Positions 2,462 through 11,060 of a stretch of DNA of 21,274 nucleotides are shown in pieces. The notes under the pieces were generated by a model that worked only from the letters and a program-made list of their open reading frames with translations, was not told the origin of the DNA and did not search any database. The position numbers and the translations under genes are program-made. The stretch is from Firmicutes bacterium UBA3941. GTDB taxonomy: Bacteria > Bacillota > Clostridia > Caldicoprobacterales > UBA3941. The stretch covers positions 791-22,064 of the forward strand of contig DGDX01000053.1 in NCBI GenBank assembly GCA_002385665.1, written 5' to 3'. Position 1 is the first letter of the stretch. Each line of letters starts with the position of its first letter.

Positions 2462-3946
2462 CTAACTGTTAAACTTCCATACCATATCATTCCACAGCAA
2501 TTCCTTTTTAAATCCGATTATATCGGTATCCTTGTTGATATGGAGAAACTCAATTCCAGCCATTTCAGCAAAGTCCCTCATGTGCTCTGCTGTCAGAGCG
2601 TAGCTCATTACAGTATGATGGGCTCCTCCTGCCAGAATCCAGGCCTCGGCTGAAGTCCTTAAGTTGGGCATGGGCTCCCACATCACCCTGGCTACAGGAA
2701 GTTTGGGCATATCCTTAAGAGGGGCTTTGGCTTTTACATCATTGACTATCATGCGCATACGCCCTCCCATATCTATCAATGATACGAGAATGGCATCCCC
2801 TTCCTGTCCTTCAAAGACCATCCGTGCGGGATTTTCACGGTTACCTATCCCCAGGGGATGAACCTCAATGGCCGGCCTTCCGGCGGCAATGGAGGGACAA
2901 ACCTCCAGCATATGGGCCCCCAGGATAAGTTCATTGCCCTTTTCCAGATGATATGTATAGTCCTCCATAAAGGTGGTACCTCCTGGCAAGCCTGAGGCCA
3001 TGACCTTCATAACCCTGGTCAGGGCAGAAGTCTTCCAATCCCCTTCACCACCAAAGCCATAGCCCCTGGCCATTAATCTTTGGACGGCCAGTCCGGGCAG
3101 CTGTTTAAGGCCGTGTAAATCCTCGAAAGTAGTGGTAAAGGCTCCAAATTCCCCTTCTTCAAGAAATTTTGTCATACCCAGCTCAATTCTGGCCTGATAG
3201 CTAATGGAATCCCTGTCAGAGGTATTTATGTCATACAGGCTGGCGTATTCTTCCATAAGAGATGCTATATCTTTATCTGAAACTCCGTCTATATACTCTA
3301 CCAGATCCCCTACCGGATGATAGTTGACTGACCAACCAAATTTGATTTGGGCTTCCACCTTATCCCCTTCGGTAACGGCTACTTCCCGCATATTGTCACC
3401 AAAGCGGGCAAGCTTTAGGGAACGGGATTCGCTTAAGCCTATGGCGGATCTCATCCATCCTCCTATGGATTCGTGAACTTCCCTATCCTCCCAATGTCCC
3501 ACGACAACCTTTCTCGGAATCCTCAATCTCGCTCCAATGAAGCCATGCTCCCTGTCCCCATGGGCTGATTGGTTGAGATTCATAAAATCCATATCGATCT
3601 CATCCCAGGGAATCTCCCTGTTAAATTGGGTGTTTAGATGTAAAAGCGGTTTATTCAATATAGAAAGCCCCGCAATCCACATCTTTGAGGGTGAAAATGT
3701 ATGCATCCAGGTGATAACACCTGCACAATTTTTATGGAAATTGGCCTCCTCCATAACCCTGGTAATCTGGGAAGGAGTTGTAACTATACCCTTAAAGACC
3801 ACCTTGCCGCATATAGCTTCAGACTGGTCCAAAGCCTGAGCGATAATTTGGGAATGCTCCTTTACCTGTACTAACGTCTCTTCTCCGTAAAGGTGCTGGC
3901 TTCCCGTCACAAACCAAAACTCGTATTGCTTTAAATCTGCCATCAT
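2462..3946 (-). CDS. araA: L-arabinose isomerase
   Basis: AraA converts L-arabinose to L-ribulose in the cytoplasm, the first step of arabinose catabolism, and needs Mn2+. The 494-residue protein has the standard family length and conserved sequence from FWFVTGSQHLYG at the N-terminus onward. The metal and catalytic residues are present: Glu301 in FGGEGDW, Glu328 in FMEDY, His345 in LGAHMLE and His444 in GGAHHTV. Two adjacent ATG codons (3944-3946 and 3941-3943) follow a strong GGAGGG; the first gives 5 nt of spacing and the second 8, so the product may be one residue shorter. No araB or araD adjoins it; the neighbours are a lipoprotein gene and deoD. Copy A of the repeated leader element (3986-4063) ends 39 nt before the start and may control it. 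Confidence 0.97.
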   Translation of the reverse strand: MMADLKQYEFWFVTGSQHLYGEETLVQVKEHSQIIAQALDQSEAICGKVVFKGIVTTPSQITRVMEEANFHKNCAGVITWMHTFSPSKMWIAGLSILNKPLLHLNTQFNREIPWDEIDMDFMNLNQSAHGDREHGFIGARLRIPRKVVVGHWEDREVHESIGGWMRSAIGLSESRSLKLARFGDNMREVAVTEGDKVEAQIKFGWSVNYHPVGDLVEYIDGVSDKDIASLMEEYASLYDINTSDRDSISYQARIELGMTKFLEEGEFGAFTTTFEDLHGLKQLPGLAVQRLMARGYGFGGEGDWKTSALTRVMKVMASGLPGGTTFMEDYTYHLEKGNELILGAHMLEVCPSIAAGRPAIEVHPLGIGNRENPARMVFEGQEGDAILVSLIDMGGRMRMIVNDVKAKAPLKDMPKLPVARVMWEPMPNLRTSAEAWILAGGAHHTVMSYALTAEHMRDFAEMAGIEFLHINKDTDIIGFKKELLWNDMVWKFNS

Positions 3947-3985
3947 ACGTCCCTCCTTGAACCTAAAAATTTAATACCATAACGC

Positions 3986-4063
3986 GTTGTGCCAGTCAAT
4001 CATATGCCGGTAATGGCTATTTATCGCTACTTCCGACATCCGCTTATCAATAGCTCCTTACCT
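3986..4063 (-). ncRNA. Repeated structured leader element, copy A (upstream of araA)
   Basis: A 78-nt stretch read on the minus strand is homologous to the plus-strand stretch 10448-10535 before ogt: 62 of 78 aligned bases are identical, with a single 10-nt indel. It can fold with helix P1 (4062-4058 GGTAA with 4013-4009 TTACC), a small internal loop, and helix P2 (4054-4046 GCTATTGAT with 4024-4016 ATAAATAGC, one mismatch). The loop holds the conserved block AAGCGGATG-TCGGAAG, and the 3' flank ends CTGGCACAAC. I do not recognise a known riboswitch. It occupies half of the gap between deoD and araA. Confidence 0.6.
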
Positions 4064-4101
4064 AAGGTTATGAACTAGCACATGAGGTTACCATAATATC
4101 T

Positions 4102-4809
4102 TTATTCTACAATACCAAGGGCAAGCTCTATCATCTGGGTAAATGTGGTCTGTCTCTCTTCACTGGTACATGCCTCACCTGTAAAGGGCAGGTCCGAAAT
4201 GGTGCAGATGCATAGGGCATTCTTCCCCGCTCTTGCTGCATTCATGTAGAGGGCTGCAGCTTCCATTTCAACGGCTAAAACCCCCATCTTCTTCCACTTA
4301 CCAAGACTCTCAGAGTCATCATAGAAGGTATCCGAGGTGAAGATATTACCCACCTTTATATTAAGGTCCTTTTTTCTTGCCATATTTACCGCCCTCTCCA
4401 GCAAGGAATAGCTGGCTATAGGTGCAAAGGTGCCGGGCAGGTCATATTGGTGTGCATAATTGGAATTGGTACATGCTCCCATGGCTATCACAATATCCCG
4501 AATCTCTACATCATCCCTAATTCCACCTGCTGATCCGACCCGGATGATGTTTTCCACACCATAGAAGTTATAAAGTTCATAGGTATAGATTCCCACCGAA
4601 GGCATACCCATACCGTGGCCCATGGTAGAAACCCTTACCCCCTTATAATATCCTGTAAATCCCAACATCCCCCTTACATCGTTAAAGCATTTGGCATCCT
4701 CTAAATAGTTTTCTGCAATGAACCTGGCTCTTAGGGGATCTCCCGGCATTATAACGGTGGGAGCAATTTCCCCCATCTTTGCCCGATTATGAGGTGTCGG
4801 TACTGACAC
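4102..4809 (-). CDS. deoD: Purine nucleoside phosphorylase, hexameric DeoD type
   Basis: DeoD cleaves purine (deoxy)ribonucleosides with phosphate to give the free base and (deoxy)ribose 1-phosphate in the salvage pathway. The 235-residue length is that of the hexameric family (phosphorylase family 1). Visible motifs are the phosphate-binding GDPLRARF (residues 23-30) and RVGSAGG (90-96), the ribose-binding EMEAAALY (181-188), and Asp206 in TISDLPF, which corresponds to the catalytic Asp204 of the E. coli enzyme. The start is a GTG at 4807-4809, seven bases after AAAGGAG. It sits between araA and an alcohol dehydrogenase on the same strand with gaps of about 155 and 176 bp, so a shared operon is possible but not shown. 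Confidence 0.96.
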   Translation of the reverse strand: MSVPTPHNRAKMGEIAPTVIMPGDPLRARFIAENYLEDAKCFNDVRGMLGFTGYYKGVRVSTMGHGMGMPSVGIYTYELYNFYGVENIIRVGSAGGIRDDVEIRDIVIAMGACTNSNYAHQYDLPGTFAPIASYSLLERAVNMARKKDLNIKVGNIFTSDTFYDDSESLGKWKKMGVLAVEMEAAALYMNAARAGKNALCICTISDLPFTGEACTSEERQTTFTQMIELALGIVE

Positions 4810-10318: not shown

Positions 10319-10447
10319 GACAAATACCCTCCTTTACTGTATTATACCATAATCTGCCTCAAAATAGGTGATAATTGGGATCCTTCCATTGTAGAATAAT
10401 AGTTATTTTGATAAAATTATCGTAATTCGTCAGTTAAGACACGATAT

Positions 10448-10535
10448 AGGTAATGGGCTATTGAAAAGCGGATGACTTTATGTGTCGGAAGAAGTGTTCA
10501 ACGGCCATTGCCGATATATGTATGTCTGGCAAAAC
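10448..10535 (+). ncRNA. Repeated structured leader element, copy B (upstream of ogt)
   Basis: An 88-nt plus-strand stretch homologous to copy A (minus strand, 3986-4063), with ten extra bases at 10475-10484 in the apical loop. It folds with P1 (10449-10453 GGTAA with 10508-10512 TTGCC, one G-U pair) and P2 (10457-10465 GCTATTGAA with 10497-10505 TTCAACGGC, one mismatch). The innermost P2 pair is A-U here and U-A in copy A, a compensatory change. It ends 51 nt before the ogt start, in the same orientation as the gene. Confidence 0.6.
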
Positions 10536-10586
10536 AACTTGAATTGTCCACATTAAGCTTAAAATGGAGGAAAGGAAGGGTTAATT

Positions 10587-11060
10587 ATGGGTAAAGCTTT
10601 ATATTATGATAGTCCAATCGGTAGGCTGATGATTTGTGAAAATGGCAGCAGCATTACACATGTCCTATTCGAAGGTAGTCTCCTTCCCGAGGGTTATACC
10701 ATAGAGGAATCACCGGTTTTAATAGAAGCTGCCCAGCAGTTGGATGAATATTTTAAAGGCCGGCGACGGAAATTTGATCTCAGTCTTAATCCTGCAGGCA
10801 CGGAGTTTATGAAAAAGGTGTGGGCCAGTCTATTGAAGATCCCCTACGGTCAAAGGCGGAGCTATAAGGATATTGCCGAATCCATTGGCAAAAACAAAGC
10901 ATACAGGGCTGTAGGCATGGCAAATAACAGGAACCCCATACCCATATTTATACCCTGTCACCGGGTTGTAGGGGCAGACGGATCCCTGGTGGGTTACGGC
11001 GGAGGCCTTGAAATAAAGACCTTTCTTTTGAATTTGGAAATGGAGAATAGTCAGCTATAA
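10587..11060 (+). CDS. ogt: Methylated-DNA-protein-cysteine methyltransferase
   Basis: A suicide DNA repair enzyme that moves the methyl (alkyl) group from O6-methylguanine to its own cysteine. The 157 residues comprise the small N-terminal domain (about 1-70) and the C-terminal DNA-binding/active-site domain. The active-site motif PCHRVVG places the acceptor at Cys124; the YGQRRSYKDIAESIG helix-turn-helix region and Arg107 in AYRAVGMANNRNP are the arginine finger and recognition helix. The ATG follows AAGGAAGGG. It stands alone on the plus strand, divergent from the GH18 gene and convergent with pcm 13 bp away. Copy B of the repeated leader element lies in its 5' region. It lacks the Ada regulatory domain. 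Confidence 0.95.
   Translation: MGKALYYDSPIGRLMICENGSSITHVLFEGSLLPEGYTIEESPVLIEAAQQLDEYFKGRRRKFDLSLNPAGTEFMKKVWASLLKIPYGQRRSYKDIAESIGKNKAYRAVGMANNRNPIPIFIPCHRVVGADGSLVGYGGGLEIKTFLLNLEMENSQL

Follow-up and report, generated by a model that had tools for sequence, protein, structure and literature searches.

The window analysed here is a 21,274-bp stretch of contig DGDX01000053.1 (positions 791 to 22,064, forward strand) in the assembly GCA_002385665.1 of Firmicutes bacterium UBA3941. On its minus strand a DeoD-type purine nucleoside phosphorylase gene (PNP, 4102–4809) is followed by araA (2462–3946), and the interval between these genes holds a palindromic stretch, copy A, that resembles a second stretch, copy B, upstream of ogt (10587–11060, plus strand). 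An earlier note on this DNA had aligned 3986–4063 (minus strand) with 10448–10535 (plus strand) and counted 62 identities in 78 positions with one 10-nt gap. Global alignment reproduced these figures, with a score of 41.2 compared to a mean of −3.7 (sd 3.1, maximum 8.0) for dinucleotide shuffles, none of which scored as high in 2000 trials. The distances of 39 and 51 nt to the start codons were confirmed from the table of open reading frames (ORFs). The downstream genes are, as claimed, unrelated, with NCBIfam assignments of L-arabinose isomerase after A and an Ogt-type methyltransferase after B; the DeoD-type PNP is likewise an NCBIfam assignment. The note had recognised no known riboswitch class; the window has no Rfam match at the gathering score. 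It presented the pair as a duplicated structured leader and offered three readings: a cis-regulatory RNA, a small RNA gene or a mobile palindromic repeat.

The coordinates first given for A proved too short. The element occupies 3982–4088 on the minus strand (107 bp, covariance-model match 108.1 bits) and is flanked on both sides by a perfect 7-bp target duplication, TACCATA, located at 3975–3981 on the araA side and, from the sequence, at 4089–4095 on the PNP side. In gene orientation the arrangement is TATGGTA-ACCTC...ACGCGT-TATGGTA, the element starting with AC and ending with GT. Terminal inverted repeats are present (ACCTCTTGTGCTAGT / ACGCGTTGTGCCAGT), the left one at 4074–4088 on the minus strand (ACCTCATGTGCTAGT) and the right one at 3982–3996, which reads ACGCGTTGTGCCAGT on the outward (plus) strand; both resemble the ends of the IS982-type loci L188, L189, L190 and L191. 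Inside them lies an inner palindrome on the minus strand, whose 5′ arm (4037–4062) ends with AAGCGGATG and whose 3′ arm (4009–4036 on the module map) begins with TCGGAAG. The point where the arms meet is a junction at which longer copies carry a nested hairpin, U3. The ORF list contains no ORF belonging to copy A itself.

Copy B (10440–10545, plus strand, outer ends approximate on the module map) is a decayed copy. It matched the covariance model with 34.3 bits (E 6.6e-5 in its own genome) over 10417–10543. The sequence ACTTTATG at 10475–10482 (plus strand) is a remnant of the start of nested U3, which reads ACTTCATTG in longer copies; in a scan for the left junction of U3 with one mismatch allowed, 13 entries from the own genome matched, copy B of the window among them. 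The right outer arm (10516–10535, plus strand, module map) is decayed, and no target duplication of copy B was identified by eye.

The two window stretches are members of a set of about forty scattered copies in this genome (G000). A 178-bp query around copy A gave 43 BLAST matches there, counting the query itself and half-copies. A covariance model built from ten clean copies gave 30 rows at E ≤ 0.01 in the own genome, 27 in the sister species G001, 13 in G003, 5 in G002, 1 in G005 and 0 in G004, where some rows are the two strands of one palindromic copy. Runs of N (scaffold gaps or masked sequence) lie inside or beside the copies L009, L020, L029 and L036, and copy number is probably underestimated for this reason. 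In a wider search, which used filters at the cost of weak matches, the element was found at E ≤ 1e-4 in four of 197 genomes, counting the own genome; all four belong to one taxonomic family, which fits a lineage-specific expansion. BLAST found it in three of 148 genomes, again including the own. An exact 20-mer of the core, searched in a GTDB contig set that may omit the own genome's records, occurred only in the MAG Clostridiales bacterium AS23ysBPME_258 (13 stretches). There were no matches in viral contigs to an exact 24-mer of the junction between the modules U2 and U3, and none to U3 in plasmids and phages.

The positions of these copies bear directly on the reading as a leader, in which an undescribed, riboswitch-like cis-regulatory RNA would control araA and ogt. 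Within the window this reading looks attractive: both copies point the same way as the gene behind them and lie about 36 and 42 nt ahead of its start codon, and Rfam has no match at the gathering score. However, neighbouring ORFs, assigned by a simple script rather than a gene caller and relative to the element's own orientation, were obtained for the 42 places in the own genome, of which 41 are clear of ORFs of at least 100 aa (the exception is L031). Just 22 of 41 have their downstream neighbour in sense, and 11 of 41 are flanked by genes that converge on them, which is what scattered intergenic insertion gives. The earlier note had itself proposed that scatter in any orientation would point to a mobile repeat, and the copies do occur in all orientations to genes. 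The two 301-base regions around the window copies contained no terminator-like site, and the sole promoter-like match in each of them fell outside the element and was no more than shuffles give.

The sister species provides a second test of the leader reading. At the araA–PNP junction of G001, where DNA identity to the window is 91% on the araA side and 93% on the PNP side, copy A is absent. The matched flanks are 19 bp apart, compared to 134 bp in the window, with one diverged copy of the target, the single counterpart of the duplicated TACCATA. Thus the stretch is not conserved at the orthologous gene. A second, clean empty site in G001 corresponds to L022, whose flanks overlap there on a single TAATTTA. 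At the third locus examined, L005, the flanks are on different G001 contigs. At the ogt site of G001 the flanks are kept and the middle differs, with a core-like stretch in opposite orientation (by eye).

The duplication seen at copy A was then measured over 33 curated copies, comprising 17 from the own genome and 16 from G001 (L004 and L014, of 35 listed, were left out because the end anchor failed). The two flanking 7-mers matched at 168 of 231 positions, compared to 143.6 ± 4.1 when partners were shuffled, and 0 of 20,000 shuffles reached the observed value. Nine shifts of the right-hand 7-mer were tried, and the chosen frame is a clear peak. The duplication is perfect in seven of the 33 copies, and the target consensus is the AT-rich TAANTTA. 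An 8-bp duplication had also been considered and was replaced by 7 bp on the basis of the AC...GT ends of IS982 and the curated scan. Copies from G002, G003 and G005, whose ends were loosely paired, gave no duplication signal (109 matches compared to 107.2 shuffled), which may be due to the age of these copies or to poor pairing of their ends. For G000 and G001 the pattern is the one left by insertion with a staggered cut of the DDE type.

The orientations, the absence of copy A from the sister species and its target duplication leave the headline of a duplicated structured leader without support, and a regulatory RNA for araA and ogt is highly improbable. Of the three readings first offered, the mobile palindromic repeat was right. 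An incidental effect of copy A on a same-strand PNP–araA transcript is possible.

Three of the eight aligned sites shared by G000 and G001 show a further peculiarity: by eye, the element or its interior seems inverted relative to the flanks. The inversion covers the element entirely in L008/L133, only the part inside the terminal repeats in L024/L141 (L024 being a right-half copy), and the inner core at the ogt site (window compared with L060/L064). Inversion in place could come from recombination across the hairpin arms or, for L008/L133, from independent insertion.

The shared hairpin of the earlier note stands as a consensus but not as the predicted fold of copy A alone. The minimum-energy structure of A as RNA departs from it, with part of the helices rearranged, and the z-score is weak (−1.60, and −1.29 for copy B), while as DNA copy A folds into a long outer hairpin (z −2.0). 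Over 48 copies (one row per place, opposite-strand duplicates removed) the consensus hairpin has standard pairs in 1115 of 1254 pair cells. Changes on both sides occur in 20 of 28 pairs, compared to 9.3 in shuffles, and in 59 cells compared to 18.4, counts that are inflated by the relatedness of the copies and by an alignment fitted to the model. In G000 and G001 alone, 10 pairs have such changes, compared to 4.8. A difference between genera is a G-C pair that is replaced by A-T in 12 of the 14 copies from G002, G003 and G005 that have a base on both sides. The structural insight of the note, compensatory change in the palindrome, was therefore sound, and it extends across genera. The apical block had looked nearly invariant because the apex is the junction where longer copies carry further hairpins.

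Pairs kept by compensatory change are a point in favour of a leader RNA, and the stem is indeed better kept than free decay predicts, which a plain miniature inverted-repeat transposable element (MITE) does not explain well. Compensatory change in a palindrome does not, however, by itself imply RNA function. Imperfect palindromes are subject to template-switch correction, and this process, selection on an RNA and selection on a DNA fold used in transposition would all produce kept pairs.

The termini suggest a source for the mobility. The IS982 family has the terminal consensus AC(N)6T(N)5TT, with AC as the first dinucleotide in 57 of 69 elements (PMC7335449). The termini of the present family fit AC(N)6T(N)5T(T/C): the left end, ACCTCTTGTGCTAGTT, is a full fit to the consensus, and the right end has TC in place of the final TT. 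Intact IS982 elements with such ends are found in genomes of the same class. L188 and L189 carry them on both sides (TTAACTTGTTGTGCTAGT and TTAATCTAATGTGCTAGT in L188, TAACTCGTTGTGCTAGCT and TAACTCGTTGTGCTACCT in L189), about 1.14 and 1.17 kb apart and with ORFs of 314 and 315 aa respectively. At least one such end was present in four of the six IS982-type loci inspected, with one end in each of L190 and L191 and none in L200 and L212. An IS982 search in 197 relatives gave a match in 32 at E ≤ 1e-3, of which three exceed the curated cut-off.

A trace of this transposase lies closer to hand in G003, a genome of the same family, where the reading frame of an IS982 pseudogene (L177:1459-1960) extends as far as a terminus of the present family's type, ACCTATTGTGCTAGATTA, with the C-terminal side towards the terminus as in L188. 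The fragment matched the IS982 model with E 1e-16 and 61.3 bits, below the full-length cut-off of 130, and a PDB sequence search with it gave nothing credible. In G000 and G001 there were no IS982 transposase matches, which is weak evidence of absence since these assemblies are incomplete (83% and 85%) and have N runs at some copies. A parental transposase in the same genome is something to expect of an active MITE rather than part of its definition. No copy of this family was seen with an intact transposase between its ends.

This leaves room for a DDE transposase other than IS982 as the mover: no transposase bearing these ends was caught in the own genome, and a PF01609 fragment below the cut-off, nearest to IS4/IS701, does lie at a G000 contig edge. 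However, that fragment locus and 11 of the other 12 transposase loci lack such ends, whereas intact IS982 elements in relatives carry them on both sides, and a different DDE enzyme is improbable. Overall, among 13 PF01609 and PF00872 (IS256) loci in G000–G005, such an end was found at one, the IS982 pseudogene of G003, and the remaining 12 are without it. The contig-edge fragment, L178:2-346 at the start of G000 contig 87, is a piece of transposase with which that contig opens, nearest to the IS4/IS701 models and without these ends; it is possibly a collapsed repeat.

Short interspersed repeats such as BOX/RUP and REP/BIME, the REP type being palindromic, offer another comparison. They differ from the present element in their ends and transposase. 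Mobilisation as a REP/BIME-type palindrome by a Y1 (RAYT) transposase would account for a small intergenic palindrome in tens of copies, but PF01797 (Y1) had no matches in the own genome (83% complete), while the control matched in five of 14 genomes. The 7-bp duplication and the terminal inverted repeats point instead to DDE chemistry, and a Y1 mover is barely credible.

The stretch is thus very probably a non-autonomous cut-and-paste element, a MITE derived from IS982. Copy number, terminal repeats, target duplication, two empty sites in the sister species, intergenic scatter and ends in common with intact IS982 elements were observed directly; the course of events proposed behind them is as follows. 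An IS982 transposase acting in trans would recognise the terminal repeats of about 15 bp and excise the element, and insertion at AT-rich TAANTTA targets would then create the 7-bp duplication. This transposase would since have been lost from the own genome or have failed to assemble there. The interior would originally have been a long nested palindrome, from which internal deletions probably produced several short sub-families, each then spreading alone. Copy A would represent such a short form, and copy B a decayed derivative with an internal deletion.

The deletion history rests on the nested interior of the longer copies. Copies range from about 85 to 700 bp, nested hairpins included; 33 of the 35 listed are shorter than 300 bp, with L140 at ~500 and L020 at ~700 bp. 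In the longer copies the apex is extended by additional hairpins, placed between AAGCGGATG and TCGGAAG. Several private junctions are shared by copies that sit at unrelated sites, as in L002 and L122 of G001, in L003 and L004, and in L022, L027, L115, L134 and L147. An alternative history, in which separate hairpins were inserted into one another's loops, fits less well. Internal deletion from a long ancestor is favoured, short of proof, because short copies keep scraps of other inner modules and because another genus already has an element with U2 and U3 that is bounded by terminal inverted repeats. The short forms thus most likely arose by deletion and then moved. A further palindromic module, GGGAGGATGG...CCATCCTCCC, was seen within or beside composites in either orientation (L020:1843-1986, L026:1437-1756 and L016:1365-1430). 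Against Rfam at E ≤ 1, eight composite loci gave two matches, to an animal microRNA and a lncRNA family, both far below gathering, and this module had no credible match.

U3 itself is a three-way-junction hairpin, found for example at L051:2239-2526 (G003), L035:1349-1504 and in L173 (G002). Its two hairpins end in pentaloops, which read AGGAT and AGGAC in L051 and AGGAC twice in most copies of the own genome. Its hairpin fold in L035 has a z-score of −10, and its stems change in a compensatory fashion (by eye, uncounted). Against U3 of L051, three own or G001 copies show 87–93% identity between genera (129/140 aligned bases in L035, 121/139 in L140 and 107/115 in L130). The left arms are less alike (L140 50/64, L130 47/64, L014 47/64), as is the right arm of L130 (42/57), and the PNP gene of the two genera is ~77% identical, below U3.

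A plain MITE does not explain this conservation of U3 across genera. U3 might be a host-protein-binding RNA, or a DNA fold used in transposition, carried by the MITE. A GGA-in-loop regulator of the CsrA kind is one guess at such a protein. Recent exchange between genera is an alternative explanation. It is unlikely, though conceivable, that the long copies serve to carry a structured nucleic acid with a function of its own.

Among the closest known systems is MITECca01, an IS982-derived MITE of Cardinium with 169 copies of ~240 bp and intact parental IS copies in the genome (PMC9769881). Like MITECca01, the present element is non-autonomous and lineage-specific, has IS982-type ends and occurs in many, mostly intergenic copies; unlike it, the copies vary in length (about 85 to 700 bp) and contain nested hairpins, and the parent was not found in the assembly (PMC9769881). 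It shares with the IS982 family 5′-AC ends, AC(N)6T(N)5TT termini and direct repeats, which vary in the family itself (7, 2, 0 and 9 bp among four table rows) (PMC7335449). It differs from IS982 in having no transposase; between three composites and four IS982 loci, the matches that reach significance lie at the ends. Prokaryotic MITEs are typically under 500 bp, and QMITE2 and others have direct repeats of 7–9 bp, terminal repeats, a stable stem-loop and AT-rich intergenic targets (PMC10969869). The present element is like them in these respects, but QMITE2 is a different element, and the likeness is one of description (PMC10969869). No earlier report of this MITE family was found among open PMC papers. 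The kind of element is known and the family is new; within the genomes searched it is confined to one lineage, and its hairpin interior is unusually elaborate.

The outcome is that a candidate riboswitch gives way to a mobile element whose ends, target rule and empty sites are defined and for which an IS family is the probable source. There is also a caution here: a pair of copies in one window, both in sense and apparently covarying, can turn out to be a MITE. Finally, the kept palindrome and conserved core make this family a case for asking whether MITE hairpins are maintained by selection, by hairpin-templated repair or by the mechanism of transposition.
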